A DNA stretch of 64,000 bases from Hexactinellida sp. DTS-2022 (taxonomy: Eukaryota > Porifera > Hexactinellida). Under the pieces are notes generated by a model that worked only from the letters and a program-made list of their open reading frames with translations, did no database searches and was not told the origin of the DNA. Location of the stretch: assembly GCA_028753945.1 (NCBI GenBank), contig JAPNXP010000012.1:3162001-3226000 (forward strand), written 5' to 3'. How positions within the stretch are numbered: position 1 is the stretch's first letter; each line of letters opens with the position of its first letter. A program made the translations under genes and the position numbers. Of the stretch, positions 3,390 through 64,000 are shown piece by piece.

Positions 3390-3945
3390 TTATCATATGA
3401 ATCTATCCAGTGGTATCTCTTTAAGTTCTTCCAGCTCTTCTTTATTCACCTTACTTTCTTCATCAAATTTAAACGCAATCAAGGCTATACCTATTTGTAC
3501 TTCTAGCAATGATTGTTTCATTTCCTTCAGCAGAGATTTAATTCTGGATATGGTGGGTTTGACAGTATTAGAGAGACCAGATGGGCATGCCTTACCTGTG
3601 TTTTTTGTTCCTGATGATAGCAGCCCTTCTTTAGTCAGTTTTGATGAATTTAATCTGAATAATCATTCCATCACTATTACAATTGATGAGACAATAAATA
3701 TACATACTATTAATTTTACATCGATAGTTTTACAGTGTCTCTTTGAGAACCCTCTGAGCAGTATTCAGCTTAAATATCCCGCTTCCGTTGTTCAAATTAA
3801 CTCAACTAAAATATACTATAATCTAAATATCATGGACATTGACAGGATCAAGCTAAATCCTTTCATTTGTAATTACAGAGGAGACTGTTATATTAAACTA
3901 TTTTCTTCATTTATAAAAGACATGAATGGCAATTCAATCTCAGAG
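3390..3945 (+). CDS. Giant Ig-like repeat protein, first visible exon (partial gene)
   Basis: This exon encodes the C-terminal half of domain R-13 and nearly all of R-12 (D at 3613). The acceptor is a pyrimidine-rich tract ending CTTCTTTAG at 3389; the preceding intron is phase 2, so at least one more exon lies upstream. The donor is GAG|GTAAGC at 3946. Both domains carry a cysteine pair where other domains have L-A-T...N-T-Y (TGT codons at 3496 and 3514, then 3868 and 3886). Both have the N-L-N-A-I-K or D-I-D-R-I-K motif and an I-x-D-M motif. Hydrophobic codons just before the exon could be mistaken for a signal peptide, but they lie in the pyrimidine tract and no ATG precedes them. Confidence 0.85.
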
Positions 3946-3957
3946 GTAAGCTGATAT

Positions 3958-4622: not shown

Positions 4623-4630
4623 ATACTATG

Positions 4631-4983: not shown

Positions 4984-5055
4984 ATACTATGTATAAAACT
5001 TGTATATAATATTGCAAATGTGACTGCGTTAAAGTAAATTTTATTTTGTTTGCAG

Positions 5056-5466
5056 GTGAATAATGTATTTCCTGGATATCCTGTTTTTGAATTTATACCT
5101 GACAAGACCTCACCTTATCTACTCTCTTTCGATATTAACTTGGCAAATGGGACTTTGATGCTCACTTTTTCTGAACCTGTTAGCGTCAGTTCTTTCCATC
5201 CCACATATTTAACACTTCATGGTGAATCTAATGCTACTTTTCTAAATGTCTCATCTATTTTCCCACTGAGTGGTGGTTATTCTAACTCTCTTAATGGAAG
5301 AATTATTATCTTAATTATATCTCCCAGTGATTTGTCTAATATTAAGGCTTCTAATTTTATTAAGAGTAAAGAGACAACATATTTGTCTATTTCAAACTTG
5401 ACTATTACTGATCTAGCATTAGTCCCAAATTTCGTGGTTACGATATCGCCGCTAACTCCTATTCAG
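5056..5466 (+). CDS. Giant Ig-like repeat protein, exon 2
   Basis: The acceptor is TTTGTTTGCAG at 5055 and the donor is CAG|GTTTGC at 5467; both flanking introns are phase 0. The exon completes domain R-12 and holds almost all of R-11, starting at the D-K-T-S-P-Y-L motif (5101). R-11 has an S-E-P-V variant of the usual S-E-T-V, an L-S-G-G turn and a D-L-S-N-I-K motif. Spliced domain length across the exon 1/2 junction is 126 residues, in the normal range, which supports the model. The protein function is inferred to be extracellular and structural from the domain type only. Confidence 0.87.
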
Positions 5467-11690: not shown

Positions 11691-12873
11691 GTCTTAAGAT
11701 ATATTCGAGATTATATTGGACCGATCTTACAAGAATTCACACTAGACTATAATTCTGATAAATTGATATTTACATTTAACGAACCAGTTCTCAGTTCCAC
11801 ACTTAATGCATCTCTTATAACTTTCTCGGCATCCTCAAATCTTTTTGCTTTAAATTATTCTCTGACTGGTGGAGCTGTAGAATTTACATCGACTGCATTT
11901 GGTGTTCTCCAATTCAATCTACATTTAATTCGTATTGATATTCTTGAACTAAAAGTTTCTAAATTTATCGCAAATTCACGTTTTGACACATATTTATCCC
12001 TTTCTTTTGGAGCTATTCAAGACACTTCTTATACTCACAATGAAGTTTTGTACTTTCAGAGAGTATCTTCTTTTTACTTAGATTCTAACCCTGTTGAGGT
12101 CGAGGATTTCTCTATTGACTTGAACCTTGGCATTTTGTTTTTAACTTTTAACGACGTTATTGACGTAAGTTCTTTTGATCCAAGTGGCTTAACATTGCAC
12201 AATTCAAGGACTCCTGGAAACAGTACTAGTTACACCTTGTCACTTAAATCTTTTGCTCGGAACCTGGATGGATATCATCTTGATATTGAATTATCTTATT
12301 CCGATTTTAATTCTATTTCTTTTATTCCTCGTTTAGCAGCTAGTCTTAATCTTACTTATATTTATTATGGTGCAAATTTAATTGATGATATATTTGGCAC
12401 TAATATTCTTGCTCTAACTAGTGATGATGCAATTATGGCACATGTTTATATCCCAGATAGCACCCGTCCTCAACTCTTAAAATTTGACTTCAATGTTGAT
12501 GAAAGCTTACTAATATTGTACTTCAATGAGGCAATAGATTTATCAACTTTCAGGATTGATCAATTAAAGATATTAGCTGGTAACAGATCTTCAATTTATA
12601 TACAATTAAGCGAACTGATAAGCAGTATTTATCTGAACATGACTACACTATTAATCCAGATACCTAGCGAATTCACTAATTTAATCAAGCTGAATCCTAA
12701 TCTTGCTACTTCGTCTTCTGATACTTTTCTTTCAATCACTAACCGAACAGTGAGAGACTTTGCAAATAATGCTATATTTCCCATTTCTACTGATCTGCCT
12801 AAACAAGTTGGAGACTATATTGCTGATTCTATTCCCCCAGAACTCATATCTTTTGATTTTGACAATGACAAAG
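11691..12873 (+). CDS. Giant Ig-like repeat protein, exon 3
   Basis: The acceptor is ATTTTTCTAG at 11690 (phase 0) and the donor is AAAG|GTATGG at 12874, splitting a Gly codon (phase 1). The exon holds domains R-10 (D at 11709), R-9 (12081), R-8 (12456) and the start of R-7 (12825). R-10 has F-N-E-P instead of F-S-E-T, and R-9 has F-N-D-V. Both are landmark variants of the 18-domain super-repeat and match R8/R26 and R9/R27 in the last exon. R-9 also shares F-G-T-N-I-L-A-L-T with R27 and R63. Spliced R-11 and R-7 are each 128 residues, so both junctions keep register. Confidence 0.9.
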
Positions 12874-19025: not shown

Positions 19026-20131
19026 GATTGATTCTACTAACTTTCTCCGAGACTATTGATGCTTTTACACTTTCTATTACTATGATAACTATTCAGAGTT
19101 CTTTTAATCTTCAAATTGATTCACAATTTAAAGAGTTTTACACTTTGAAGGATTCAACTTATCGCATTGTAAATTCTGAATATATTGATATTATATTATC
19201 TTTTTCAGATTCTAATAATATTAAATCGCTGAATACATTGGCTGTTAATGAATATACGACCTATATGTCCACAGGAACGATACTTGTTAGAGATATGAGT
19301 GGACTGACTTCTAAGCAAATATTCGATAATTCTGCTCTTCAAGTTTCCCGTTTTGTGAAAGATTCTACTAGACCCCAGATTTCTCAAGCGATTTTTAATC
19401 TGACGAGTGAAACTATTACTATTTACATTAGCGAGACGGTTAGAGTAAATTCAGTCAATTTGACTCAGTTCTACTTGCATAGTTCCGCAATTAAATATTT
19501 TTCTTTAACAGGCGGAACAGTGTCTACAATTGATGGGCCTATTTTTACATTTACACTGAGAACTCAAGATTTAAATCTAATCAAACGCGATATGCACTTT
19601 GCAACGAATATTTCCAACGTATTTTTTTCTGTCACTGAAAATTTCTTATTGGACATGAGTGATAATCTAGTTATGCCAATTAATAAATCCAACCCATTCA
19701 CTTTCACTGAATTTGTTCCAGACAACATTCCACCAACTTTAGATGGTTTCATTATCGATTTGAACACTGGTACTTTATCGTTAATGTTCTCGGAAACTGT
19801 GAGGGCTATAACTGTTTTTTCTTGTACGATTACATTGTCTAGACCAAATTTATCATCAAATTTACCACTCTCAAATTTTTCAATTCACGCTCTATCTGAT
19901 TCACCTCAAATTCAAGTCACCTTCTCAAATTCTGATTTAAATTCTTTCAAATTATTGTTGATAAGTACTTCATATGTCTTCCTCTTTGTTAAAAATTGCT
20001 ATATCAGTGATATGAACAATAATTTTCTTGTCCCGGTTACTCAAGGAAATGGTCTAATATCTACACAAATCTACCCAGATATTACTTCACCACAATTATT
20101 GTCATTCGATTTTAATCTTAATAAATCTCAG
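19026..20131 (+). CDS. Giant Ig-like repeat protein, exon 4
   Basis: The acceptor is ATTCATTTAG at 19025, with a poor pyrimidine tract. The exon completes the Gly codon begun in exon 3, giving D-N-D-K-G-L-I-L-L-T-F, which fits the domain consensus residue for residue. The donor is CAG|GTAAGC at 20132 (phase 0). It finishes R-7 and holds R-6 (D at 19361), R-5 (19721) and the start of R-4 (20078). Each has the [ST]-E-T-[IV], D-L-N-x-[IF]-K-type and I-x-D-M blocks. Spliced R-7 is 128 residues. The domains appear ordinary, lacking the cysteine or E-P variants, as the 18-domain register predicts. Confidence 0.9.
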
Positions 20132-43000: not shown

Positions 43001-46000
43001 ACAGACTTTTTTCGAAGATCCAGAATACACCATTACGTTAACTGGGGGTGCTATTACTCATGCCAACTCTTATCAGGTTACAATTCACTTAAACCAACTT
43101 GACGTCGATTTAATTAAATCACACTCTAGGATTTGTAAAAAGAGGAATCTTTGTTGGATAAGTCTCTCAAACAGCTCTGTAATGGATATGGCCGGAAATC
43201 CCGCAGATGCAATATTTGAAGGGAAGGGGAAATATGTGTACCGATTTGTTAAAGACAGTATATCACCCTTTCTTTTACATTGGGATATCTCTGTGAACAA
43301 TGGAACTGTATGGTTATATTTTAATGAACCTGTAACTGTTTCGTCTCCTGAATTTCTTCATATTTCTTTTCATCCTTCTCATAATAGTTCCTTAAATTAT
43401 ACTCTTGTAGGGGAAAGTGTCTCTATTGTTAATGTGAAAGTTGTTACTATATACCTATCTCTATCCGACCTTCTTTCAATACGCAGAACAACTTTTGTTA
43501 AAAGCTTAAATGATTCATTTATCAGTTTCGATTCTGCCCTTTTAACTGATACAGCACAACCACCTAATTATATCTTATCTATTTATATTCCTGCCGCTAA
43601 GCAGGTCCGAAATCATTATCCTGACACTTCTGGACCTAATCTAGTGGCATCAGTCCTCGATCTCAAGTTAGATTTTTTAACTCTTGTGTTTGATGAACCT
43701 GTCATCCCACAATCAATTAATATCAATTTTATAACATTAAGTAGTTCACCTGTTTACTCAGATAACACAAGTCAGAACCTAACCGGGGGGATAATATTTA
43801 ACACGGATTCATCAAATTCCATTGTTCTACAGTTAATTCGAAGTGATTTGGTATTGATTAAGAATCATGCTGGTTATATGAGTGAAGAAGATCTGGTATT
43901 TATTTCGCTTGCAATGGATGCAATATTTGATACCCAAATGCAATCGAGTACTCCTATCAATGGACAGTTATCGGAGTATATATTTGATACAATCCCTGCT
44001 AATTTGGAATCATTTACCTTTGATCTTAATGCTGGAGTAATTTCTCTAATATTTAATGACGTCATGGATGCTGGCAGTATTAAAGTGAATGGTATTTCTA
44101 TTCAAAACATGGCTCATGCAGCAGTCTCTGACAAATACACATTTCAATCTTCTATGACATCCACATTTATTAACGGTTACAATTTCTCAATATTAATTTC
44201 AAACGATGATTTGAATTTCTTAAAAGATAATGCTAATCTTGCTACTAGTATTAATACTACTTACATCACTTTATATGCATATACGGCAAATGATATATAT
44301 GGTATAGATGTACTTGCTATCACTGACCAAAACATTATTCAAGCTTCTAAATTTATTCCAGATACATCTGCTCCATATTTGACTAATTTCTATCTTGATC
44401 TTGACTCAAACTTGTTGCTACTAACTTACTCTGAAACTGTTGATTTCTTTTCATTTGACGTAACTAAACTATCGCTCCATGCTACAAGATTTGGCTTAAG
44501 ATTTAAACCCTTATCGCCCTCTACGGAATCTATTCAATCGAATTGTACTTCTATTGAAATTCATATTAAACAGTTGGACGTCAATTTACTTACTAAGAAT
44601 ATCACAATTGCAACTTCTAGATTAAATACATATTTGACTATCAATCCAAATTCAATTCAGGATACAAGCGGTAATTCTCTAAATATTACGCAAATACTAC
44701 AAGCTTCATCACTGGTACCGGATCTTCAATCACCTTTTTTGCTGGGATTCAAATTAAACTTGAACTTGAATAGCTTAGAACTCATATTTTCTGAAATAGT
44801 AAATAGTTCTTCTCTTGACACATCACAAATTTCAATTTTTTCATTGAATGGGTGGAGCTTAACTAATCACTCCCTAATTAATAGCTCGACTATTTTTGGA
44901 ATTTTTGCTGATACTATACTTGTTTCCCTTGGGACCACAGACCTGAATGCTATCAAAGAAGACAATTTTCTCGCAGTATCAAACAGTACAACTTTTATCC
45001 GTTTATCCCAATTTGTAATTAAAGATATGTCAGACAATTATAATGCTCCATTATCACATACTGACCTTTTTTCAGTCGATGTTTTCACTCAGGATCAAAC
45101 TCAACCCACTCTTTTAGCTTTTTCTTTGAACTTAACCTCGGAACTTCTCTCTTTTGAATTTTCTGAAACAATTTCAATCTCTTCTATCGATTTGACACGA
45201 TTTGTGTTATCTGACAACTCTACTAGTCACTATCGATTGTCTGGGGGTACCATAAGTTCTACTCTGAATAATAATATAATAGACGTTATCTTATCAACTG
45301 CAGATCTCAACAATATCAAGAGACTTACAAGTGTCGCAACGTTGTTGGATAATTCGTATCTTTCTGTATTGGTTGGGGCCCTTACAGATACGAGTGGAAA
45401 TTACGTCATTTCGACTCTTCTGTTAGCTCAAGATTTTTTTCCGGACGAAATTCACCCTGAAGTTATCCTCTTTACCCTTGATCTCACCAGTAACATTATT
45501 ATCCTAAAATTTTCTGAGACAGTACAACTGGGTACGACACTTAATTTAAATAATCTTGTCCTTATAAGTTCTTCATCTGGATTCATCCAGAGTACAATTC
45601 TGTTAAGTAGCTATCATAACGATTCTATCAGTGATATTTTGACTATATTTTTGTCTTTCAATGATTTAAGCTCAATACAATCTCAAGAAAACCTTTGTAC
45701 CAATGTCTTAAATTGCTTTCTTTCGTACTCAAATACATTAGTCTTTGATCTTAATTTTAACCGAATTATTCCGCGGTTATTTCCTTCTAATAACCTACTA
45801 CCAGTTTCTGAGTTTATTTCTGACATGGTTTCTCCAAGACTTCTCAATTTTTCATTTGATCTTAATTCTGGAGACTTAACATTCACTTTTAATGAAATAA
45901 TTATGTATTCTTCAGTCTCTGTTGCAGAAATTATATTACAAGATAACGTACTGCTATCTAATTATTATGTCACTCTGAGAACTCTCTTTGTAAATACAAT

Positions 46001-49000
46001 AAATCATTTTGTTATCAATGCTCAAGTTTCAATTACAGACTTAAACGTTATTAAACGAATTAAATCGCTTTGTATTTCTATTAATACCACTTTCATTTCA
46101 TTTACTTCACCTGCATTTAAAGATATGAACTTTAATTTTATAGATCCAGTGTTTAATGCATCTGCTCTGAGAGTTTCTCACTTTACTCAAGATTACACTA
46201 GGCCAACATTGGGGAACTTCTCTTTTGATGTCGATATGAATTCTCTTGTCTTGACTTTTATTGAAACGGTTGATGTTGAGAGTTTCGATGGATCTCAAAT
46301 TTCTATTTTGAATAGCGTTAGTGGATCATTATTTGTTCGATTAACTGACACATTAGTAATCAATGCTGATTCAGGGCCAATTATTTACCTCCGTCTCTTA
46401 GAAAATGATCTGAATCTTATAAAAGTAATTCCTGGCCTTGCAAAGATGCGCACTAATACATTTATTAGTTTTAACTCAGATCTTGTACGTGATATGGCTG
46501 GAAATAGTGTACTTCCTCTCACTTCTTCAAATTCAATCATGGTTTTAGAGTATATGGAAGATCAGTCCGGTCCTATTCTACAATCTTTTGATCTTGATAT
46601 GAATGAAGGTATTCTTATCCTGAATTTTGATGAAGTTGTACGAGTGAGTAGCATTAGGCTAAATCTCTATACTCTTATGAACTCTCCCGTCCATGCTAGT
46701 TATACTTACACCTTAAATGGAGAAGTTGTAGCTTCTAATGATTCCACTTCAATTAGTTTGAAACTTGACGATGTTGACATATTAGGAATAAAAACTAACC
46801 TTCAACTAGCTACGAACAGAAATAATACTTGGTTATTCGCTGATAATGCGGCTGCTCGAGATACATCATTGAGATATAATCCGAATAATAATGAAACAAT
46901 ATCTGTTAGAAATTTTGTTCGTGATTCCACCGGTCCACTAATTGTTATTTCTAATGTGTTGCTAGATTTGGATGCTGGTATTATTATCCTTGAATTTAAC
47001 GAGCCTGTGAATCGAGATTCTCTTAACGCCACAGGAATATCCTTGCAATCTGATCCTGACTCTTTGACTAAACTACAGTTAACTGGTGGTTTTACAATGT
47101 CACCTGACGGATTTGTAATTGTTGTTACACTCAATACCTATGATCTGAATGCAATTAAACAAAATGATTATCTTTGTACATCGTTTGGGATGGATTGTTA
47201 TCTATCGGCAAGTAGTGACACGATTCTTGATAATTCTGGGAACAGACTAATTTCGATTAGTCCATTTAACCCACAACTGATAACTCAAGTCGTTAATGAT
47301 ACAGATTTTCCTAATTTAGACAATTTTAGTTTAGATATGAACACTGGAACTTTGATTCTCACCTTCTCTGAGACCGTGAATAGTTTCTCCTTGAACATAA
47401 GAGAACTGAGGTTGCAAACAACAAAAGATTCCCGTTCTTCAAAATATCAATCTCATTCATTGACTTCAGGAACTCTTCTCGTTCATGCTAATTCCACAAT
47501 AGTCACAATATTAATCAGCCCCTATGATCTCAATATTCTTAAAATACTACTCATAGGAGAATTTGTTAATTCTACATGGCTTGTAGCAACAAATCAAACT
47601 ATTTTAGATATGAATGGAAACAACAACTATCCGATAATTTCTAACATCAATACCTTAAATGTGGCAAATTTGACTACAGACAGTACATCACCTAGATTGA
47701 TTAGCTTTTTATTGGATCTTAATACGGGAAACCTCGACATTTCTTTTGACGAGAGTGTTGACGTAAGTACATTAAATGTTAAATTAATAACTATACAAAA
47801 TGAAGCGAATAGTTTTAACTACACATTATCTGGTGGACATATCAGTACAATTGATCGACCTACATTGTCAGTTCTTCTCTCTCTTACAGACAGTAATGCT
47901 ATTAAAAGGATCACTCAGCTAGCAACTTCGAATAACACCACATATATCTCATTTCCTTCTCAACTTATTGCAGATATGTTTAGTAACGAAATAATTCCTA
48001 TTTATTTTACTAACCCAACTCAAGTCCTAACCTTTATTGAAGATTATACTCCACCTGTTCTTCTGACTTTTGAGATCAATTTAACATTGGAACAAATTAT
48101 CCTCTCTTTTTCAGAGACAGTAAGCTTTTCCACACTTGTGGCTTCTCAACTTACTCTACAGCAAACAATGGTGGGTGGAACTTTATATACACTGACAAAT
48201 GGTACGATCTCACAGAAACTTGATGATCCTATTATAATTCTCAACCTCATTCAATTTGATCTCAATATTATTAAGAATATAACCAACGTTGCTACAAATC
48301 CTTCCAATACTTATCTATCTATCTCAGACTTGTTAATACTAGATATGAATGATAATAAAAATGAACCTATCTTTTTTAACAATTCTCTTCGTGTTTCTTA
48401 TTACACCGAGGATTTAATTGATCCAGAAATGCTAAGCTTCCATCTAGATATGGATACTTCGATTTTGTATTTAACTTTCAGTGAGACTGTCAATACTCAC
48501 TCTCTCAGTCCAACTCTATTGACCATACAAAACTTATTATTTGATTATATAATTCTGACACTAACAGGGGGATCAGTCTCTCAAAAGAATAGCACTATTG
48601 TTACTATTTTTCTTAACATTCGAGATTCGAATTTTCTCAAGCAAAATACTGACCTTGCTACTTCAATTTCAGACACTAATGTTACGTTTTCAACCGGCCT
48701 GATCCTAGATATGTCTAATAACGCAATCCAATATCGAGATAATGCGAATGCATTAGCGGCATCACATTTTACAGACGATTTTAGCCGTCCCAGCCTTACC
48801 TCTTTCTCATTTGACTTAAATAGTGGTGTATTATATTTTATATTTTCTGAATCGATAAATGGCGATACCTTTCATCCTACCCAGTTAACGCTTCAAGTCC
48901 AAAATGTTTTTACTAATAATTTTGGGCTAAACTATACATTGACTGGAGGTAATTCTATACATGAAAATTTCACTTCCCTTACCACCACTCTAATTAAGCA

Positions 49001-52000
49001 CGATATCGACCAATTGAAAAAATTGTCTTCGCTTGCTACTTCAACTAATTCTACCTATCTTAGTCATACCTCTCAATTAGTTAGAGACATGAATAATAAT
49101 CTTATTTTTCCGATTTTATCTTCAGACGCATTACAAGTTATTAATTTTACACAGGACATGACAGCTCCCACCTTTAGTAATTGGGAGATTAATATGAATA
49201 CTGGAATTTTTACCCTCTCGTTTAGCGAGACAATGAATAGTTCAAGTAGTAATTTTAATGGAATTACTCTTTCTGATCGAGCAGTTGTTGACAATAACTC
49301 CGTTTTTATTGCTCTTAAACATGGCACAATATTGTCTCTCGATAGTACAAGTATCAGTTATATATTTACCATAGAAGATTTGAATTTAATTAAAAAGTTA
49401 AATCTATGTTCTGATCGATTGCAGCATCTTAACTGCTTTATTTCATTATCTTACGATACTATCAAAGATATGAGTGGATTATCTATAAAACCAATTCCCC
49501 TCAACCAATCCAGGGAGGTATTGAATTATATTAGGGATGTCACCCGCCCGATACTTGTAAAATTTCTTATATTTAATGCATCAAGCGGAATTATGACTAT
49601 TTTATTTAGTGAGACTGTTAATATATCCAGTTTCGATATTTCCAAAATATCCTTGCAGAGGTGGTCTTTTGACGAAGGTCTCCTACCAAGACCATTTCCC
49701 GTTGTGTCCCTAAAACCTTCAACGTTGCTCACAACTGAAGATGGCCTTGAAGTATCATTCCTCATTGATATATATGACCTTAACAGGATTAAACAGATTA
49801 CATCCCTCTGTATTAGTAAAGCTTCATGTCACATTCGGTTCAATGAGAATTTGCTCAAGGATATGGCAGGAAACCAAATTATTATGATAGTTGATAACAT
49901 CATTACAGTTCCTGTTTCTGAATATGCAGAGATATTTGTCTCTGACAAAGTGAATCCTTCATTAATAGGATTTATGATTGATTTAACCTTACAAAATGTT
50001 ACCTTGACATTTGATGAAACAGTCGATCTTTCTACTTTTGATTCATTGCAAATCACTTTCCTCAACTCTCCCAACCCTATCCTGCTTCATACCTTAAACA
50101 CTCCTGGCACCACTGTTACTATAGGAAATTGGCTATATGTTGAATTTTTGTTATCAAATGAAGATCTTCAGGTTATTAAATATATGGATGAACTGGCCAC
50201 AAATGTAAATGACACTTATATTTCTGTTACATCAACATTAATTAAAGACATGAACCAGAACCAGTTGAACGTTATTCCATATATTGAAGCCATTAGAGCT
50301 ACTTCGTACGAGCGTGATTCTATTGCTCCTCAGCTAACTGGTTTCATACTGAATTTACAGGAATATCATCTCTTATTAACTTTCGATGAACCTGTGAAAT
50401 TTAATTCAACTATTCCAAGTTTTATTACTCTACTCAGTGGTAGCAACATTTCAATTAGTGGAACTAACTCTTATACTCTCACAGGTGGAACTTATGGATA
50501 TCACTCTGTTGTCCAAAGTAAAACTGTTATACAAATATACCTCATTCCAAAAGATCTTCAAGAGATAAAATTAGATCCAGAAATCTCAACAGTAGTTTTT
50601 ATTTCCTTTAGATATAATATGATCCAAGACACTAGTTGCAATCCTATTTCGAGCCTTTCTAACTCCACTTCTCTACCTGGTACCCTAGTGCTCGATGCCA
50701 TTAACCCCTCATTAATCCAATTTGATATCGATTTAGATGAAGGCACTTTGACTCTGACTTTTGATGATGTTGTTTCAGCAGCTAGTTTAATGATTCAACA
50801 AATTACATTGTTAAACATAACTTCTTTATTGGGAAGTAGCTCTTATACTTTGAAAGGCGGGTTTTCCTACTCACCAGATGGCTATTTTATTGTAATCATA
50901 TTACTAACGACAGATCTTAATATTCTTAAGGGGAATCAAAGCCTTGTAACTAATAAAAACAATTCATGGCTCGTACACCCAAGAGAATTAATACAAGATG
51001 AAAGGGGGTTGTATGTATTTCCCCATACAAATATTGATGGAATTCAGGTGAATTCCTTCATTTCAGACACAACCTCGCCAGAGCTTTTAACATTCAATTT
51101 AGATATGAATGAAGGCACTATTTACTTACTTTTTTCTGAAACAATAAAAAGTGACACTCTTAAAATTTCTAATATATTCTTACAAAATACAATTTCAGTC
51201 AATTCAAATCAATCAAATCTTGGTCCAAGTGTTTTAGAAGAGCTTGCGCACAAGATCTCCACTCACAGTACTCACACAGTTGCTATTGATGATATATCTC
51301 TTATTATCACACTTTCTCTTTACGACCTGAATGAACTCAAGAGACTCCATGGATTAGTTATATCTCCTTTTACCTCATTTATTTTATTTAATGCAGATAC
51401 GTTGTTGGATATGAATATGAATAATATTGTAGCTGTATCCTCCCAGAATGCAACTATGGTACTGGAATTTATCTCTGATACTACTAAACCAGTCATTACG
51501 AACTGGTACTTTGATATGGATGAAGGAACAATGGTATTTTTCTTTAGTGAAACTGTCAATGCTTCTTCTTTTAGTGCGATAAGTATTACTATACAGTCAT
51601 CGAATAACATTACAAATTTTGATTTTCTAGCGTACACACTAACTGGAGGATCACACAGTAACCAATATGATACTATTATTTACCTTAATTTAACAAAATC
51701 TGATTTGAATGAAGTTAAACGAATAGAAACTATAGGAACTTCTTCTAATGATTCGTTTATTTCTTACAATGAGGATCTCATTTTGGATATGAATGGAAAT
51801 CATTTGGTGGCTAGGTCAAGTCAAGATGCACAACAGGTATTGAGATATACTTTAGATAGTACACCTCCATTTCTTCTAAATTTTACTTTAGATATGAACA
51901 GTGGTTTTATTCTCTTTACATTTTCAGAAACCGTTAAATCTAATTCAATTAACTTCAAATTATTTACCTTACATAATTCTCCCGGTTTGGTGAATGGAAG

Positions 52001-55000
52001 TCAAGCTAGCTTCACTCTAACCGATGGGATTGTCTCGATTCGTGATTCTATTTATATACAAGTTAACTTAACATTATCTGACTTGGATGATATTAAAAGG
52101 ATTTACTTATTGGCTATCTCTATGAATACATCATTTATCTCGATCCAACAAAACAGCATCTTAGATAAGAATGGAAATCAGTTACTACCTGTCTACTCCT
52201 ATTCGGCACGACAAGCCAGTGCTTTCTATCCAGATATCACGCGTCCCTTCTTAAGCTCTTTCATTTTGGACTTAAATGTAGGATTGCTTGTGCTGACATT
52301 TTCAGAGACAATGAATACCGATACACTACATATATCTGACATAATTATACATCATTCGCAATCACTCGATTTACAATATTCGATCATTGTTGGTTTATCT
52401 AACTACTCCCTTGGAAATGACACTGTTATTAGCATCTTGCTCAATACAGATGATCTCAATGAGATAAAGCGCTTAAGACTGCTCGCTACCCGATTGAACA
52501 ACACTTTTGTTTCTTTCAATGATTCTTTAATATTTGACATGAGCAACAATGCTATCCTGACCACGTTAGGGTTCAGGGTTAGTACATTTATTCCTGATCA
52601 CGTTGAACCAGAATTAATCAGATTTTCGCTTAACCTAACTATTGATCAACTTGTTCTCATCTTCTCGGAAACAGTATCAACATTACCTCATGATATTTCG
52701 AACATATTTTTACAAAATATTGGTAATTCTTCTTCTTCAAGTGAATACGAACTTCTCCAGCTTTCAAACAGTTCTTACTCGTCATCTGCAGATGGGACTG
52801 TTTTAATTGTTCAACTGAGTCTAACGGACTTGAATTTTCTAAAGAGAATGCGGAGTTTGGCCACGAATATTAATGACACATTTCTTTATGTTCATTCATC
52901 TCTCTTGCGAGATATGAATGACAACGAAATAATCGCAATAGATAGTTACAGTGCCCTAGGTGTATCTAATTTTTATAAAGATACAATACCTCCTATTTTA
53001 CTTAGATTTAATCTTGATATGGATATTGGCGAGCTCCAAATTTATTACTCTGAGACAATTGATCTTGCTTCTTTGCAAATTACTGAAGTAACTTTACAAT
53101 CCTCTCGCAACCTCTCCAGTCCTAAATACTCCATGTACAATATATTAGAGGAATGCATTGGCTGTGCTTATACCAATGACTCAGATGCGGATGTTGTAAC
53201 TATTTCATTGGGATTAATAAATGTAAACCGGATAATGGAAGATTATTATCTCGCTCAATCCCCTGAAAACACTTATCTTTCGATTACTTCTACACACGTC
53301 AATGATACTTTCCTTAATCCCATCGTATCTATCCCTATCTCATTAGCTTATAAAGTTTCACTATTCATTCCAGACACTACTGCTCCACGTTTAGAATTTT
53401 TCTCTCTCAACCTCACCTCTGAACAACTTACTCTTACCTTCGATGAAATTATTAATATATCATCTCCTATTATCAACCAAATTGCTATACTTAATAGGCC
53501 TTATCTCTTAGCGAATATAACCAACGACCAAACCAGAGTTTTATTTCTCACTAATTCATTCAGAATTACTCAAGAAGATTCTGCCATTATTACTTTCAGC
53601 TTATCAATATTTGATATTAACTATATTAAAATCTTGCCTGAACTAGCTACTAGTTCCTTTAACACATTTATTTACTTGCAAAATGGATCCGTAGTTGATA
53701 ATTCATTGTCTGAAAACCCCAATTTCAATATTATCTTAAGAGTAAATTCTTTTTTCCCCGATTTCACTGCTCCTCGCCTTCTCAATTATACCGTAGACAT
53801 GGATATTGGTACTTTAACTTTAAACTTCAATGAACCAATAAATGTTTCTAGTATTGATTTCACTGGACTTTTGCTTCAAAATAGCATATTATCAAATAGC
53901 CTTAGTAACGAACTACGGTTAACTGGAGGTAATACAATAAGTCATAACGGTCTTCAAATAATAATTAATCTACTTGTCCAGGATTTGAATGAATTAAAGC
54001 GAAAAGGTGAACTCTATGATGATCTCGAAACTTCCTACTTAGTAATATATTCCTCCTTTATCCAAGATATGAATAGTAATCAAGTATATCCTATAGAAAA
54101 CGGAAATGCCCGTCAAGTTCTTGCTTTCAGAATTGACTCTACTGGACCTGCACTTGTTAGGTTTGATCTCGATATGGATGAAGGTCGCATTAACCTATAT
54201 TTCACAGAGACAGTGAATGTTACTTCCCTCCTCATTAGCAATCTTCGTCTTCAAAGTTCACCTGCCATTGGTAATCACTCCCTTTCAGAATATTCATTAA
54301 CTGGTGGTAATATTCTCACTGCTGACAATAGCATCTCTATATCTTTCGTAATCTTGGAATCCGATCTAAATATTATAAAGAGCAGACGCATTGGTTCAAA
54401 CAATATTACGGCCTGGCTAGTATTCCCAAAATACACTATCTTAGATATGAATGGTATTTCAATCTTGCCACAATTAGATGGAATAAATGCTACTCCTTCA
54501 ACTGATTTCTACCCAGATACGACCAAACCATACCTTATAAACTATGATATTGATTTATCAAATGAAAGTCTTACACTAACATTCTCTGAAACCATTATTA
54601 CCAGTACGCTCTCCCTTTCTAATTTTCTGTTCCAAAGTGTGGAAATACCAGTACGCGTCTATTTCGAATCGTTGCATTTGAGCTCCGATTCAAAAACATT
54701 ATCTGAAGATAATCCCATAATTCGGATTGAACTTGGATTAAATGATCTGAATGAGATTAAAAAGCTGACAGATCTCCTAATAGATAAAAACCACACTTAT
54801 TTATCTTTCCCCCCTCAATACATCACTGACTATATTGGGAATGTTGTGCTAGGTATTCCGCCTAATTTTCCTTTGCAAGTGAATACGTTCACAAGTGATA
54901 CTATATCCCCCGTTTTGATGTCCTATTCCTTAAATCTCACTTCAGAGATATTGTCTCTCTCTTTCTCAGAAACGATAGACTATACCACTTTCTCAGTCAA

Positions 55001-58000
55001 TCAGGTCACAGTTTTATCCCAACCAATTAGTCAAAGTTTATTAGATACTACCCAACATTACACTTTAACTGGGTTTAAGAATTCTCTAATTGAACCTTCC
55101 CCAATTCTCACTATATTGTTCACAAACAGTGATCTTGATATAATAAAACAACTTTATTCTCTAGCCACCTCTTTCAATACTACATATATTTCTATATCAA
55201 ATTTTACTGTAGCTGATATGATTGGAAACCAGAATGTAGAAATATCCACTTTAACCCCTCTCCCTCCTGTGCGTTTTACTCCAGACAATATACGTCCTTA
55301 TCTTATATCATATGATCTTGACTTGGATGGGACAGGATTTATGACGCTCTCATTTTCTGAAACTATGAAAATTTTCACTTTGAATCTTATTCAACTTACG
55401 ATACAACATCTTCCAAGTTCCTTTTTCCAATTTAACTTTTTTAACTCACTTTTCTCTCAAGCCAACAGCACTACAATCAACATTTACTTTAGCAACGAAG
55501 ATCTTAATACATTGAAATTAAATTTTAATGTTGCTACCAACAGAGAGTCAACCTATCTCACTTTTGGATCTTCGCTTTTAAAGGACATGACTAACAATGA
55601 AATAGTACCAATTTCAAATGGTAATGGAAGAGAGGTGTTTACATATATCCCAGATACTTCTTCACCAGTTTTATTAAACTTTTCTCTTGATATGTCTTTG
55701 GCAGTCCTGCATTTATTTTTCTCTGAAATTGTTCATTCATCAACTCTTAACCCAACATACATTTCATTACAAAACTTTGAATCTTCTAGTCATAACACTA
55801 TAAGCTATACCCTCACAGGTGGCCATAATTCTGAATCCAACGATACTACAGTATTACTTCTACTCAATTCTGTGGACTTGAATAATATTAAACTTTTGTC
55901 AGACTTAGCAGTTTCTATTAATACAACTTATATCTCCCTCAAACAAGGAACAATAAAAGACGTTAGTAGAAACGATATTTCACAAATCTCGAGTTTTAAT
56001 GCGTTAAGAGTTTTTAACCTCACTCAAGATACCATCAGTCCTACTTTGGATAGATTTCTAATTGACATGGATGTTGGCCTGATACGGATCAACTTTAGTG
56101 AAGCAATCAACATTGCTTACCTGCAACCCGTACATCTTACTCTACTTGACTGCTGTTTATATGGTGAATACTCTAGATTGTCTAATACTTCTCTATACAA
56201 TCACACATTTACTGGGGGTTATTGTGATAGTATTGATCAAACATATTTCACCTGTTCACTCACTGAACTAGATTTAAATGCGATTAAGCTAAAGAATATA
56301 TGTACCGAAAACCACAAAACCAGAGACTGTTGCTTAACGATTCCTGGAACTAGCATATATGATCTCTCCAATAATCCCTTTTTACCCATTTTCGAGGGAT
56401 GTGGATTCCCTGCTGACGAGTTTATCGATGATGATACTCCGCCCTCTATTCTTGAATTTTCTGTATTTAACCTCAATGAAGGAACTGTTAGATTAACAAT
56501 AGATGAAACTGTTAATTCTAAAACAATAAATTTAACCAAAATCACTCTTCAGTCATTTTTTCGATCTCCCTTATCAATATTTGCACTTACTGGTGGTTAC
56601 CTAACTTCTCTTAATTCAATAATAATTACATTAAACCTCACTTTTGATGATATCGAGACAATTAAACTTTTACCAGACCTATGCTCTGAAGAGAATAACT
56701 GTTGGTTGTCCATTTCAAATACTTTTGTATTGGACATGGCAAACAATGCAGCTGATTCTATTTCTTTTTCTAATGCTCTTGCTTCTCTTATATTTATTGA
56801 CGATACAACTTCTCCCAGCCTTCTTTCCTACTCATTTAATATGGATATTGGCACCATCATATTTACTTTTGACGAGTCAGTTGATGCAATGTCTCTTAAC
56901 CCAAGTTCTGCTACTATTCAAGATTCCGGAACAGAATCTTTAAAATTTTATACATTTACAGGTGGCTCCAATTCCATTATGAATGGAAGAATAGTCTCAC
57001 TTAAACTCACATTGGAAGATGTTAATATCTTGAAATCTATCGATATTTTAGGTTCTAACCTTTTTAATACTTATCTTCATATCACTGATACTTTCATTTC
57101 TGACCTCGCTTCACGTGCCCCAAACGCAAATACCATTATTTCTCCTCTTTCAGCATTACGTACTTCAAACTACAGAAAAGATGCTACACCGCCAAATATT
57201 TCCTCATTTTATTTGGACTTAGATTCTGATTTTTTGTGGGTCTCCTTCGATGAACCGATCAGGATTTCTTCACTAAATCTACTCAAATTTACGATACTTT
57301 CAGATAAAACTTGGCCTACTGAATTTCTCACACTGACAGGTGGGACAGTGGATACTCTGAGTAATTACAATGGAACTTTGAATATTATGATATATTTAGT
57401 TAAACCCGATATCCGTTACCTAAAGCTATCATCTTTGATAGCTACTACAAAACAGAATACCTTTTTGATAGTTGAACAGGATGGTGTAAGAGATATGTCC
57501 AATAATTCTATTTTAAACTTGCCAATCTCTAATGCTGTAATTGCAAGCCGATTTGTTCCTGACGATACTAGAGCATCTCTACTCAGCTTCTCCTTGGATA
57601 TGAACACTGGTTATCTAAACTTGACTTTTAATGACATCATTCAAGCATCTACGCTCTACTCTAGTGCATTTACTATCCAGCATTCAGAGCTTTTGGATTT
57701 AAGGTTTATGCATACTCTTACCAGTTCAACGATTACCAACAGTATGAATGGGTATTATATTTCTCTGGAAATGTCCTTTTCAGACCAGAATTCAATTAAG
57801 CAAAACATAGGCCTTGCGACGAATACTAATAATACTTATTTAAGCATGAGAGCAGATGCTTTTGATGATAATTATGGAATCGATATACTTGCAGTCACGC
57901 ATGATATGGGAATCCGTTCTAATCTCTATATAGTCGACGCTACTTCACCTTCTCTGTTGTATTGTACTCTTGATATGGACTTGGGCCAAATTAAACTGAC

Positions 58001-61000
58001 TTTTGATGAAGTACTTAAAGGGACCAGTTTCATTACTGAATCATTAACACTTCAAAGCACTCGTATGTATTCTAATAACACGGTATCATATTCTCTTAAG
58101 TACAGTCATTCGAGTCCGCTTAATTCAACAGTAATTACTGTTTACATTAATGACACTGATCTTAATGTTATCAAGGTGTTAACAACTCTTGCAACTTCTA
58201 GATTTAATATATATGTTTCGCATGATAGTTTGTTAACTGTAGACATAGTAGGAAACTCAATAACTGCTATTCCGAGAAGTAATAGTTTAGATGTGACACG
58301 TTTTATATCAGATACCACTAGCCCTAGCTTAGTTGCCTTCTCTTTGAATCTTACATCTCAAATTCTAACCTTGGTATTTGATGAGACTGTTAATGCAAGT
58401 TCATTCACAATAACGGAACTCGCACTCCTTGATCAATCATCGAGCTCCTTATACCCCCTAACATCAGGCACATCTTCTTCATTAGACAGCACTGTAATAT
58501 TTGTAAGCCTCTCGTTAACTGATCTAAATGGCATAAAAGCTATACAAAGCCTTGCTACTGAGATTAACAACACGTATTTATCTGCTCGCCAGAACACAAT
58601 TACAGATATGAACGGAAATGTACTATTTGACGTGCCATTGACATACTCAATTAAAATTTCTTATTTTTATGGCGATTTTATTCCACCAACATTGGAGTTA
58701 TTTGAGTTGAATTTAGACACTAATGTTTTAATTCTATTTTTTAGTGAAACAATTAATTTTGCCACAGTTTTCCCAGAATATTTTACGCTCCATAGCACGA
58801 GTAACTCTTCATCTTCTTCACATATATCATTAACTCTTGAAAGTAAAAATGTTAGTAAAAATAACGATTATATAATTATTATTTATTTAAATCCTACTGA
58901 TAGTAATGCAATACGACAGTTATCTAACCTGGCTACATCTAACAATGATACATATCTATTCGTATTAAAAGGAGCTGTGTCTGATATGAATAATAATCAA
59001 TTGGTCCCTGTAATTTCTCTTAGTGTGAATACTTATACACAAGACTCTTCAAGGCCGAATATTGAATCAGCTATACTCGACATGAATATTGGTGTGTTAT
59101 ACCTTTTCTTTTCTGAAACTATTCAAGTTTCAACTTTGAACATCTCTATTTTGACTCTCCAAAGTTCTCTCGATCTACAGCCTAACTCTCACTTCTCTCT
59201 GACTTATAATTCTTCAACCCGATCCATGGATGATACTTCACTCATGCTCTTAATTGGACATCTAGACCTCAACGAAATCAAAAGAATTCCTTCTCTTGCT
59301 ACAAATTTATTTAATACATTCCTTTCATTCGCCTCAAATCTTATTAAAGATATGAATAATAATCCAATCATACCCGTATCCTCAACTTCATCTACACAGA
59401 TAAATGAATACATTTCTGACTTCACAAATCCCATCCTGCAAAGTTTTCACCTCAATTTGAATACCAGTGAAATCAGACTCTATTTCTCTGAGATTGTCCG
59501 TGGCTCTACACTACGAGTCATTAGTATTTCTCTAAATTCTGCAAGAAATACATCCCAATATGGTAGCAGTTATTCTTTGACGGAAAGTTCTTCTACCCAA
59601 ACTGAAAATTATGACTCATTAGTTATCAGTATTGGACTAGTTGATACTAACGAAATTAAGAAACTAGTCAATCTTGCAACTAGTACGAATAACACATTCT
59701 TATCAATTGAAGCTCATACTATTATAGATATGAATGCTAACTATGTTGAGCCTATATCGATCTCGAATTCACTCCAAGCAGCACGATTCACAGCAGATAT
59801 TACACGGCCTTATATGACTGAATTTAGTTTGGATATGAATTCAGCTCTACTGCTGTTAACTTTTTCTGAAACTATTTTGGTTTCAACTCTCAATATTTCT
59901 TCAATCAATCTACAATCTTTTTCCCAGATAACCAATAATGAGTTCGTTCATCTCCAAGTATTGAATTCTAACTTTAGCCCCTTAAATAATTTTTATGTCA
60001 GTCTTGTACTCGGGATTAATAATGCTAATGCGTTAAAGACTATTCCTGCCCTCGCTACTGATTATTCCAATACATTCATCAGCTTTTCTTCTAACTTTCT
60101 TACCGATATGAGTTTCAATCAAATAATAGCTATTTCTCAGTCAAACGCTATTCCTGTGAGTGATTACTCGCCTGATATCGAAGGTCCACTATTGCTATCC
60201 TTTGCTCTAGATCTGACTTCAGACATGTTATTTCTTACTTTTGATGAAGTGATCAATGTTCAGAGTATATCTCTCTCACTAGTTACTCTATCATCCAATA
60301 TATTGAGTTCAGATGCTTTCACGTTTAGTTCTACTTATAGGGACATATCAACAGCAAATGCTACTTCTCTCTCTGTGACCCTTAATATTGATGACATTAA
60401 TGCTATTAAATTAGTCCAATCACTAGCAACCTCTCTCAACAACACATATTTAGTTATGTACAATGATTCTATATTTGACATGGCTCTGCATCCTAATCCA
60501 TCCATTCGTCTGTTTCCCATACGTGCAAGATACTTCAATGGTGACAGAATTAATCCCAATCTGCTTTCTTTCATTGTGGACATGAATTATGGTATACTTT
60601 CGCTAAACTTTGATGAGCCTATACTTTCATCAAGTTTCAATATTACAAATAGCATTTATTTATTTTCTTCTCTAAATTCTTCCATCTCTTCTGGTTATAC
60701 TGTCAAATATGCTGAAGTTAGTAGTACAGATGACTTGATGCTAATAATAGTTTTATCCAACAATGATCTTAATGAAATTAAAAGGAGGGATGAATTCTTT
60801 ATAAGCAGAAGTACATCTCATCTCTCTGTCATGTCAAATCTTATCCGTGATATGAACAATAACCCTCTCAATTCTATTAACATCCCAATCCAAGCAATAT
60901 TTTTTAATAATGACACAACAATGCCCGTAATAATTAGTTTTGGTTTGGATATGGATGAAGGAATACTGAGTCTCACATTTCCTGAAACAGTTGACGTCTC

Positions 61001-64000
61001 CAGCGTGATGTTTGAAAGTATTACTTTCCAGAAGGCAGCTAATGTAACATTATCAATCAACAGATTCTCGTTAACTGATGGAAATATTTTTATATTAGAA
61101 GATAATACTATTGCATATTTAAAACTTATCAATTCTGATTTAAATATGCTAAAGCAGAGAAGAATTGCTAGATCATCGAATTTGACTTACCTAGCAATCG
61201 AGAGTAGTGCGATAGTTGACAAAAGTAATCAGCGTGTCCAAGCACTAAAAAATGGTATCAATACCTTGAGGGTAACTACATATATTTCAGACACTACCAG
61301 TCCTATCCTCAACAACTTTGTAATCGATCTCACGGCCGAGATAATTATATTACACTTCTCAGAGACGGTTGCTGTAGCTTCTTTGGACATGACTAGACTG
61401 ACTCTGCAGGCACATTCTAAAGCCAATCATACAATTGAGCTATACACTCTCACTCAAAATACAACTACTAACTCTACAGATTCAACTATCATTTCTTTAA
61501 AACTTGGCATTACAGATTTGAATTATATTAAACAACTGACTTCTCTTGCAACTGAACTTTCTAACACGTATCTCTCATTAACTTCTGAGTTTATACATGA
61601 TACATTCGACAATCCAATTTATCCAATTCTTAAGAATTTGTCTCTCCGAGCTTCTGTTTTCGTTTCAGACATCATCCAACCACAGTTGAGCAGTTTTGAA
61701 ATTAATCTTAATTCAAGAATGCTTACACTCTACTTTACAGAAACTGTCAATGTATCTTCGGTGAATATTTCTCAATTGACCATTCACTGTGAGCCTTCTA
61801 CTTATTTTGAGAATTGTTCTTATTCGTTGACTTATTATACTTATACTTCTGACCCCAATCAACATTTCCTGAGAATTCAGATGAGTGACGAGGATTTCAA
61901 TGAAATTACAAAAAGGAAAATCCTCGCAACTGAATTATCCAATAGTTACATATCTATTACATCTGATTTTGTGCTTGACATGTTCTCTAACCCAATATTA
62001 TCAATTAGGATGCCTGGTATCAAAGCTAGTAAATATTATCCTGACAGATCAAGACCCAGGCTTTTGTCATTCTCACTTAATATGAATTATGGCTATATTC
62101 TTCTCAAATTTAGTGAGACCATGGATATCAACACTTTCAACCCTTCCTTTATAACATTACAAATAAATGCTACATCTACCTTATTTAGTTTCTCTCTGAA
62201 TGGAGCTACTAATTTCTCCTCGTTTAATGAACAATTACAGTCAATTGACCAACATTATAACCAGCCTTATGTGATTATTTTCTTACTTAATTCGGACCTC
62301 AACAACTTAAAGAGGAACACAAAGCTAGCTACGTCCAAATATAATACTTTTATTGGCTTTGAATCGAACCTAATTGCTGACATAAGCAACAATCTGGTTA
62401 TAAATGTTTCATCTGTTGCTGCTCAACCTGTCAATTTATTTACATCAGACAAAGTAAACCCAATTTTGACTTCTTTCAATTTTGACTTAGACACGGGTGT
62501 TGTTAGCCTTCTCTTCAGTGAGACTATTAATTCTTCTTCTTTTCTACCAAACACAATTTCTATCCAGAATATTAATTCCAGGGATAATTATACATTAGTT
62601 TATTCTCTCACTGGCGGCGAATTGATCAAACACTACGATGATCCTCTAATACATTTCACACTCAATATTATTGATACTAATGAAATTAAGAAAATTGATT
62701 TATTAGCCACATTGGATTCTAATACTTTTATTACTATTGACGATCATACAGTTCTGGACATGAATGACAATAACTTAGTTCCTATCAGTAGTTCTGATGC
62801 TCTCTTGGTCAATTTATACACCAATGATAGTACACGACCCAGTCTGAATTCATTCTCGCTTAACTTAACTTCTGAGATCATGACTCTTTCCTTCACGGAA
62901 CCTGTCATCTTACATACTTTTAATTCTTCTCAAATCACTCTTTCTAACAACCAAACTCTTTTATTCAGATTGACTGATGGTTATTTATTTCATCAGGGTA
63001 ATGAAATTCGTTTTGATTTGATATTAACTACTTCTGATTTGAACTACATCAAAGAGTTAACCCCCCTAGTAGTCTCCAAAGATTCTACATTCATATCAAT
63101 AACTTCAGAGTTAGTCTCAGATACGCATTCGAATCAAGTCGTTCCGATAAATTATCTTCAAGTTATGGAATTCTTCCCTGATTTAATCAATCCGCTATTA
63201 AATGATTTCGATTTGGATATGAATAACGGAATACTCACTTTATATTTCAGTGAAACTGTGAATGCCTCCTCTCTGATGACGATACATCTTAGTATTTTGT
63301 CTTCAAATGAGAGTTCTGTACTGTGGCATACTCTAGGGGAATCCTCGTATACCAACTCTTCTAATTCGTATATAGTAACAGTTTTAATTAGCTTAGATGA
63401 TCTTAATCAAATTAAACAGTTAAAATATTTAGCCACTGACGTAGATAATTCATTTATTGTGATTAGTAGAGAGTTTATTAATGACATGAACCACAATCCT
63501 ATAATTCCTATTGTGTCCACTCTACCATTGCATATTCGTAACTTCACTAGAGATTCTACTTCTCCAGTTCTTGACAGTTTCAGTCTGGACATGAATATTG
63601 GGCTATTAACTCTTTTCTTTAGTGAAACTATAAATTCAACTACTATCCGCATTACTGATATCCTACTACAATCTCTTCCACACTCTAGTTTTTATTCAGT
63701 ACCATTAACATCCACTAGATTCTTTGAATTTGATGGCCCTAATATCACAATTACTCTCTCAGATTATGATCTAAATCACATTAAACAAATGAATACCCTT
63801 GCTCTAGATATCAACTCTACTTACCTCATTATCAACTCATCTGCAGTTTACGATTTAACTGGAAACCCTTCGATTGTAATTCTGGGCAATCAAGGACTGA
63901 AAGCATCTGTTTTTATCCCAGATATTACGAATCCTAATATTGAGGGATTCTCTCTTGATTTAAATACAGGCCTGTTTGTATTATCTATATCCGAAATTCC
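34058..64000 (+). CDS. Giant Ig-like repeat protein, exon 6, at least 29.9 kb, 3' end outside window
   Basis: After the phase 2 acceptor ATTTTAG at 34057 one frame stays open to the end of the window: about 9,980 codons with no stop seen and 80 domain starts all in the same frame (first D at 34182, last at 63921). Domain length is 117-140 residues, mean 125.5. Typical blocks by approximate position: D-x-T-x-P-x-L-x-S-F-x-L-D-L-N-x-G (1-17), L-x-F-S-E-T-[VI]-x-x-S-[ST] (20-30), I-x-L-Q (38), L-T-G-G (55), L-x-x-x-D-L-N-x-I-K (75-83), L-A-T-x-x-N-[ND]-T-[YF]-[LI]-S (88-98), I-x-D-M-x-G-N (104-110). The layout resembles SbsA/Big_5 Ig-like domains. N-x-[ST] sequons are dense, so a secreted or surface protein is likely; this is inference. 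No transmembrane or enzyme motif was noticed. The symbol is unknown to me. Confidence 0.95.
35661..42461 (+). repeat. 18-domain super-repeat block B (R5-R22)
   Basis: Landmarks by unit in the block: units 1 and 2 have cysteine pairs (TGC 35931 with TGT 35958; TGT 36330 with TGC 36348). Unit 2 has Q-R-W-G-F-D-D-G. Unit 4 (from 36840) has N-E-P-V, unit 5 (from 37233) has F-N-D-V, and unit 13 (from 40203) has F-N-E-P. Length is 6,801 bp. The corresponding earlier block (R-13 to R4) is spread over exons 1-6 with introns between. Confidence 0.85.
42462..49154 (+). repeat. 18-domain super-repeat block C (R23-R40)
   Basis: Units 1 and 2 carry cysteine pairs (TGT 42756 with TGT 42783; TGT 43134 with TGT 43152). 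Unit 2 has L-Q-T-F-F-E-D-P, like R-12 and R60. Unit 4 (43623) has F-D-E-P, unit 5 (43986) F-N-D-V, unit 13 (46923) F-N-E-P. Unit 5 holds Y-G-I-D-V-L-A-I-T. Two further cysteine-pair domains occur at units 9 (45444) and 13. Length is 6,693 bp. Confidence 0.85.
49155..56027 (+). repeat. 18-domain super-repeat block D (R41-R58)
   Basis: Units 1 and 2 carry cysteine pairs (TGT 49407 with TGC 49434; TGT 49809 with TGT 49827). Unit 2 has Q-R-W-S-F-D-E-G, like R6. Unit 3 (49944) resembles R7 in its F-D-E-T-V-D and N-W-L-Y segments. Unit 4 (50316) has F-D-E-P, unit 5 (50694) F-D-D-V, unit 13 (53760) F-N-E-P. Length is 6,873 bp. Confidence 0.85.
56028..62825 (+). repeat. 18-domain super-repeat block E (R59-R76)
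   Basis: Units 1 and 2 carry cysteine pairs (TGT 56301 with TGT 56328; TGC 56682 with TGT 56700). Unit 1 has several extra cysteines. Unit 2 has L-Q-S-F-F-R-S-P, like R24. Unit 4 (57180) has F-D-E-P, unit 5 (57564) F-N-D-I with Y-G-I-D-V-L-A-V-T, unit 13 (60543) F-D-E-P. Length is 6,798 bp. Confidence 0.85.
62826..64000 (+). repeat. Domains R77-R80, super-repeat landmarks absent
   Basis: If the period continued, R77 and R78 would carry cysteine pairs and R80 an E-P. R77 and R78 have ordinary V-x-K-D-S-T-F and L-A-T-x-x-D-N-S-F segments. R80 reads S-E-I-P at the window end and not S-E-P. R77 itself has a T-E-P-V. The domains are otherwise normal, so the super-repeat seems to end or change near 62826. 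Confidence 0.7.

Follow-up and report, generated by a model that had tools for sequence, protein, structure and literature searches.

A giant tandem-domain gene of a glass sponge is ordered in 18-domain blocks that other sponge classes share

The 64,000-nucleotide stretch of DNA from the glass sponge Hexactinellida sp. DTS-2022 analysed here ('the window', C4:3162001-3226000 of a eukaryotic genome assembly of 112.4 Mb in 18 contigs) is the 3' part of a single giant gene, with a total span of at least 179 kb, that encodes about 126 contiguous domains of approximately 124 amino acids each. About 96 of those domains (approximately R-20 to R75, in the numbering given below) are held in an exact 18-domain 'register', built from five 18-domain blocks of two alternating kinds (in the order B-A-B-A-B), and relatives from other sponge classes match this order domain for domain in the stretches compared. 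The order noticed in a preliminary description of the same DNA is confirmed to be real, including its exact register, except in the flanks on either side, where the register is lost.

Domains were delimited with a hidden Markov model (HMM) built from seven seed domains, all taken from the last-exon reading frame of this array, and are numbered R-37 to R88 (numbers in the preliminary description are higher by one). Eighty-nine of them, R0 to R88, lie in a last exon of 33.6 kb, whose open frame of 11,202 amino acids (34038-67643 between stops) crosses the end of the window, meets a stop at 67646, and is split by the HMM into domains without gaps between them. An HMM search of the 130 kb upstream found exons with array domains as far as position -111661. 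Joining the predicted exons through fifteen GT-AG joins that keep the frame, chosen by frame and HMM score (with the join of index 5 placed by hand at a better acceptor), yields a chain of 15,751 amino acids with, counted from its first recognisable strand, a computed mass of 1.75 MDa, an isoelectric point of 4.4 and 363 N-glycosylation sequons. For R-14 to R78, over which all landmark counts were taken, this independent count gives the same 93 domains as had been described earlier, and the landmarks stay in register under it.

Three types of landmark residues define the register, each much as first described. The E-P pair is found at every ninth domain (in all ten positions congruent to 7 modulo 9, versus 4 of 83 elsewhere; Fisher 1.2e-10); the F-[ND]-D motif occupies the five positions congruent to 8 modulo 18 and none of the other 88 (1.9e-8); and 'Cys' domains, defined by both cysteines in the same two model columns, recur as pairs at five sites, occupying 10 of the 12 positions of phases 4 and 5 versus 2 of 81 elsewhere (R76 and R77 being empty, and R30 and R34 extra). 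Periodicity of the E-P and F-x-D landmarks exceeds the best of 60 shuffles, across periods 5-40 and all phases, by at least three orders of magnitude, and that of the Cys domains, scored one phase at a time, only about twofold (8.5e-5 versus 1.7e-4). The finer motifs said to recur at 36 domains are each present in the domains named and nowhere else among the 126, apart from N/D-G-Y, which also appears in R13, R44 and R76.

The same order is visible in the domains as a whole, in spite of a mean pairwise identity of 0.287 and a maximum of 48%. In the full identity matrix, on which stripes at 18 and 36 had been foreseen, these are found at 36 (z 8.3), 18 (z 5.0) and also 54 (z 5.0), with none at 9 (z -0.7), 27 or 45; over the 86 domains from R-14 to R71 the values are 10.2 at 36, 6.0 at 18, 5.2 at 54 and 2.9 at 72, again with no stripe at 9 (z -0.4), 27 (0.8) or 45 (-1.9). 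Masking of the landmark columns and all cysteines leaves the stripes in place (36, z 9.1; 18, z 4.4; 54, z 4.6; 9, z -0.6), and spacer domains alone still display them at 36 (z 4.6) and 54 (z 3.4), and weakly at 18 (z 2.2). Leave-one-out prediction assigned the correct phase to 39 of the 86 domains with a period of 18 (7.0 in shuffles) and to 31 of the 86 with a period of 36 (4.6 in shuffles). At a step of nine domains, only the E-P residue recurs.

The extent of the register shows in the best ungapped segments, which match R-20..R39 with R16..R75 at offset 36 (score 60.9) and, at offset 18, R-14..R57 with R4..R75 (score 27.1), each against a shuffle 99% value of 17.9. Three landmarks expected upstream are missing (E-P at R-29, F-x-D at R-28 and the Cys pair at R-32/-31), as is the E-P expected downstream at R79. 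Two shifted registers were rejected: a shift by 7 for the tail R76-R88 (offset 29, z 2.6), with a segment score of 6.1 against 17.9, and a shift of +5 for R-29..R-20, with a score of 10.2, under the shuffle 99% value. A +6 shift of R-37..R-34 is based on landmarks, and is also present in two relatives, P0056 and P0065.

Within the window, the plus-strand blocks comprise U1 (R4-R21, kind A, 35658..42458), U2 (R22-R39, kind B, 42459..49151), U3 (R40-R57, kind A, 49152..56024) and U4 (R58-R75, kind B, 56025..62822), followed by the tail outside the register (R76 onward, 62823..64000, and on to R88 past the window). The alternation of kinds is apparent from block similarity, which is 1.3-1.7 standard deviations for blocks 36 domains apart versus 0.6-1.05 for those 18, 54 or 72 apart. 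A tree of 23 blocks, each with at least 8 of its 18 domains (missing domains being gap-padded) and calculated under one fixed model (LG+F+R4), places U1 and U3 as sisters (99.5/100) and separates U0 and U2 from U1, U3 and U4 (99.9/100). Blocks in this tree cluster by position, not by species: the U1 blocks of glass sponge and demosponge group together (100/100), as do U3 (100/100) and U4 (99.9/100) of all three sponge classes and U0 (99.9/99), with the grouping of U2 less firm (93.1/89). Corticium contributes U3 and U4 only, and its placement with the glass sponge inside U4 is unsupported (10.9/50). Together, block tree and block similarity bear out the part of the earlier growth scheme (9 to 18 to 36 domains) that concerned duplication at 18 and 36 and deep divergence in register; its 9-domain step is not borne out, as domains nine phases apart show no similarity beyond that of arbitrary phase pairs (z -1.3, landmark columns masked).

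The relatives provide corresponding evidence of colinearity. Two models from Dysidea avara (Demospongiae) are colinear with the gene over R-37..R12 and R29..R88, Corticium candelabrum (Homoscleromorpha) over R43..R88, further relatives over R-37..R24, R33..R88, R41..R88 and R44..R88, and a shorter protein of Oopsacas minuta (Hexactinellida) over R-25..R-15, at 56% identity. By this colinearity with relatives in other sponge classes, the gene belongs to the 18-register class as defined here. Its domain order is followed by 11 of the 19 arrays compared in this way, four of which (P0057, P0060, P0061 and P0075) are counted after allowing for domains split by the HMM; apparent one-domain insertions in P0060, P0061 and P0075, and near the end of P0057, were rejected as single domains split by a long loop. 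An unexplained gap of 127 amino acids after domain 25 of P0057 could hide an extra domain. Same-position identity in colinear sponges of other classes is 0.36-0.38, against 0.32-0.34 for the best shifted diagonals (of at least 20 domains), and 34 of 110 domains in Dysidea and 16 of 46 in Corticium find their best match at their own position (chance being about 1 in 126), so that the positional signal of single domains is modest. Paralogous domains are down to about 30% identical. Because the other classes share this domain order in the stretches compared, and because each block groups across classes in the tree, sequence comparison indicates that the block duplications are older than the split of these classes, with all five blocks already distinct before glass sponges and demosponges parted, and U3 and U4 before the homoscleromorph split.

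The strictest recurring part of the register is a 'node' of five domains at phases 4-8 (Cys, Cys, x, E-P, F-x-D). On the plus strand of the window it is found at R4-R8 (35658..37607, with F-N-D), R22-R26 (42459..44357), R40-R44 (49152..51062) and R58-R62 (56025..57932). R58 (56025-56426) has eight cysteines in model columns, the other node domains two or three. In the pooled 18-class (nine proteins, R-20..R75), two or more cysteines are present at 19 of 19 and 20 of 20 positions in the two Cys phases of the node, and its E-P and F-x-D at 20 of 20 and 20 of 21; the second E-P, at phase 16, is kept in 22 of 26. The latter domains are R16 (40200..40586), R34 (46920..47294, also a lone Cys domain), R52 (53757..54131) and R70 (60540..60908), all on the plus strand.

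The same domain is employed at another spacing elsewhere in this genome. Contig C12 (~3527099-3673795, minus strand) contains a single open frame of 49,073 amino acids, of which 60 of about 147 kb were read, giving 162 domains and no stop. In that sample, the array has a period of 23 (z 10.1; 46, 69 and 92 at 6.9-7.4), and none at 18 (0.3) or 36 (1.0). Its F-x-D domains form a ladder (0, 11, 23, 34, 46, 57, 69, 80, 92, 103, 115, 126, 138, 149) of thirteen intervals, alternately 11 and 12 domains, with five more off the ladder (1, 49, 84, 93, 139); the fourteen Cys pairs show the same alternation, and a lone Cys domain (61) is extra. The corresponding landmark frequencies in the pooled 23-class are partly fitted, because its rotations were fitted first. 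As whole arrays, the C12 and C4 genes share no common diagonal, and the C4 gene falls outside the 23-register class (z 0.0 for C4 versus C12 phases); the node is shared all the same. When the landmark columns and cysteines were masked, the best of 414 cross-class phase pairs were 8-0 (z 8.6), 5-20 (6.7), 5-8 (5.6), 7-22 (4.7) and 7-10 (3.5), and 10 of the best 14 align nodes. Because these masked pairs are mostly node-aligned, the two giant genes have homologous nodes and differ in the number of spacers. A third array of the same domain, on contig C18 (~6067566-6110000, plus strand, in several frames of 703-5874 amino acids), displayed no clear period in the 30 kb (80 domains) that were read, and fits both registers in part.

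A rotation test was applied to a wider set of sequences: 132 relatives were scanned, the 77 with at least 34 domains being scored unmasked, with the best rotation compared to shuffles treated alike. At z of at least 5, the 18-register includes 12 of the 77 and the 23-register 31; with z raised to at least 10, these numbers are 9 and 25. One of the relatives, P0074 from EukProt, whose identifier, like that of P0131, is in the style of choanoflagellate transcriptomes, fits as strongly as the sponge proteins do. Other strong internal periods were seen in P0126 (14), P0071 (5 and 22) and P0088 (4), and are perhaps further super-repeat classes or recent duplications. Among the matches listed, the long-array relatives with organism names are sponges or choanoflagellates, although the domain family may be spread more widely; P0055, a protein of Aureococcus, contains three domains and shows no register.

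The choanoflagellate arrays resemble those of sponges in their domain, in their Cys, E-P and F-[ND]-D landmarks and in a partial match to the 23-register; they differ from the sponge giants in their domain number and F-[ND]-D spacing. In Salpingoeca rosetta, PTSG_06209 (35 domains found, preceded by 680 amino acids of other sequence) repeats internally with a period of 22 (z 15.6) and carries F-D-D at its domains 8, 19 and 30 (spacing 11/11). Its domains 1-20 fit the 23-register when masked (20.5; shuffle 99% 13.1; 0 of 400 shuffles), and do not significantly fit the 18-register (7.6 versus 8.7, masked). In Monosiga brevicollis, MONBRDRAFT_33612 (33 domains found, F-[ND]-D spacing 9/12) fits the 23-register over domains 11-28 (24.0 versus 13.0, unmasked, 100 shuffles). 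The fit fails for a second S. rosetta protein, PTSG_12324 (12.2 versus 13.5). Among sponges, the match of Ephydatia proteins to the 23-register is good in one case (48.3 versus 15.4) and only marginal in another (12.4 versus 10.5), and an Amphimedon protein fits both registers (18, 38.2 versus 13.3; 23, 29.9 versus 18.3).

The ends of the molecule are best seen in the relatives. P0056 and P0065 start with a hydrophobic leader (judged by eye), followed by a half domain with two cysteines, situated before R-37, and then in order by a complete Cys domain, an x domain and the domains with E-P and F-D-D; both molecules therefore begin with a node. Six C-termini that were examined stop no more than 15 residues after the D-M motif of R88, at a conserved G-C-R (G-C-Q in the C4 gene), and no membrane segment follows R88 in the relatives' models examined. 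R88 itself (67257-67637) is a Cys domain without the last strand. The half Cys domain of the two relatives, which would be R-38, and R88 are 126 domains (7 x 18) apart. The individual domains are probably Ig-like beta sandwiches, and may share the fold of Pfam Big_5 (PF13205), a bacterial Ig-like or SbsA-type domain to which the similarity is weak and centred on the F-S-E-T strand; among the matches listed, the array scores below the curated cut-off of that family (two multi-domain pieces reach 16.2 and 16.3 bits, and a third has no match, against a cut-off of 23.6). An NCBIfam search gave no credible match. No Ig, FnIII or kinase family is among the Pfam matches listed for three pieces and 78 single domains, and the protein is not placed in the titin family.

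The explanation that we consider probable for these observations is that of a block-duplicated giant, composed almost entirely of these domains and probably a secreted filament, with conserved nodes and with spacers that set their distance. Sequence comparison shows that whole 18-domain blocks were duplicated, that two diverged kinds are in alternation, and that the blocks were distinct by the time the compared sponge classes split. The protein would form a long extracellular filament in which spacer domains set the distance from node to node, and the nodes, stiffened by local disulphide clasps, might act as joints or docking sites. At a length of about 4 nm per domain, the nodes would be about 70 nm apart. 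Selection would preserve the nodes, and the domain count may be frozen in part because diverged repeats no longer mispair.

Several observations weigh against this explanation, or narrow it. Eight of the 19 arrays compared depart from the C4 order (P0077, P0078, P0068, P0064, P0063, P0082, P0092 and the C18 array of this genome), and of the 77 long relatives, 34 match neither of the two registers at the z 5 threshold. Four of the best 14 cross-class phase pairs (15-22, z 3.4; 15-4, z 2.6; 11-22; 17-19) do not align nodes. The E-P pair alone is no safe mark of the register, because that of R-2 (33125-33502, plus strand) is seen in this genome only (1 of 3), that of R76 in 1 of 6, and that of R84, which is off-register, is kept in 6 of 6. 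The leader exon of the C4 gene was not found: among the matches listed for a tblastn search with the P0056 and P0065 N-termini, covering the first 25 kb of the upstream stretch, only the known first exon appeared. Big_5 matches only 6 of 78 single domains (best E 7.8e-4), and a PDB sequence search found no solved relative (best E 0.53).

The most serious rival, to which we give somewhat less than an even chance, holds that the register is a fossil only: an old block duplication, with divergence of the repeats then putting an end to unequal crossing-over and freezing the domain count, with spacing that has no function and landmarks that are kept locally. It is serious because repeats about 29% identical are hardly able to mispair, and because the out-of-register flanks (R-37..R-21 and R76-R88) are also common to relatives, so that order can be kept without register; outside the core, identity between corresponding positions (0.35, n 99) differs little from the value within it. 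However, node residues are 95-100% conserved in the pool while in-phase identity is 0.28-0.38, and the 23-class employs the same node again at a different fixed spacing. A second rival, the growth from 9 to 18 to 36 domains as first proposed, with 9-domain halves diverged past recognition save for E-P, draws on the presence of E-P at both phases 7 and 16 and on the half-unit of the 23-class (phase distance 11, z 4.0, p 0.0004), but is improbable given the lack of similarity at 9, 27 and 45, and at phase distance 9 when masked, and the fact that R16-type domains are closest to phase 6 rather than to phase 7. Recent duplication, concerted evolution or assembly error can hardly have produced an order in which domain identity averages about 29% and reaches 48% at most, and which recurs in other species' models with blocks that group by position. 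Nor is there any real prospect that the landmarks, although picked by eye, are chance patterns in a long array, in view of the independent HMM count, the permutation controls and the stripes that persist under masking.

The reading of a block-duplicated filament can be extended, tentatively and with a probability well below even, to a pre-metazoan family of giant extracellular filaments in which a portable node is placed at gene-specific fixed spacings (18 domains in one class, 11 and 12 in alternation in the other). The spacing would be a selected molecular ruler, retained from the ancestor that choanoflagellates and sponges had in common. The nodes would then be periodic docking or cross-link points, and the incomplete first and shortened last domains, both Cys domains, may link one molecule to the next, head to tail.

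The remaining features of the window are the predicted exons of the gene, all on the plus strand. Those at 3390..3945 (second half of R-14, which lies partly upstream of the window, and most of R-13, with Cys, Cys) and 5056..5466 (end of R-13, and R-12) are based on GT-AG joins, frame and HMM; they are followed by 11691..12873 (R-11 with E-P, R-10 with F-N-D, R-9 and the start of R-8), 19026..20131 (remainder of R-8 to the start of R-5) and 32066..33762 (remainder of R-5 to the first part of R-1). The giant last exon, predicted from HMM and frame at 34073..67643 (33,571 bases, of which 34073..64000 are in the window), starts at a weak acceptor and includes R0-R78 and the start of R79 within the window, with R88 as its last domain; a further exon may follow it. 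The intron between 12873 and 19026 contains frames on the opposite (minus) strand at 13442-14302 (287 amino acids) and 14403-16169 (589 amino acids), which are perhaps a mobile element, and introns also carry tandem repeats at 22712-22865 (period 83) and 31478-31605 (period 16, called also as 32 and 48).

The giant size of proteins in this family is already published for another glass sponge, Aphrocallistes vastus, in which Avas.s016.g412.i1 has 49,014 amino acids encoded in one 147-kb exon; the available text of that report describes no domain order (PMC10282587). The C12 frame, matched on length and single exon alone, is probably its counterpart, and because of that match the A. vastus protein is taken to belong to the same domain family as the C4 gene, which differs from the A. 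vastus/C12 type as a separate gene with a period of 18 rather than 23. Super-repeat order is likewise already known in titin and nebulin, with 7 or 11 Ig/FnIII domains in the A-band super-repeats of titin, as set out in the relevant part of PMC3859903. The sponge protein resembles these in being a giant tandem-domain protein with a fixed higher-order repeat and, as we infer here, an extended filament; it differs from titin in its domain family, in being probably secreted and not sarcomeric, with no kinase seen, and in using one domain type throughout, at periods of 18 and 23. A literature search, outside which lay subscription papers and supplements, found no published account of the domain order described here.

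The finding describes a super-repeat system that is as ordered as that of titin and belongs to a different family, in animals that have no muscle and partly also in choanoflagellates. That a glass sponge, a demosponge and a homoscleromorph share one domain order amounts to a very long-lived intragenic domain synteny. In the part that was sampled, the C12 frame, which probably represents the largest protein yet reported from glass sponges, proves to be a 23-domain super-repeat. The role of giant extracellular proteins at the base of the animals becomes testable, and so does the question of whether selection maintains super-repeat order or the order has simply frozen, since the two paralogous genes differ in period and lend themselves to comparison in many species.

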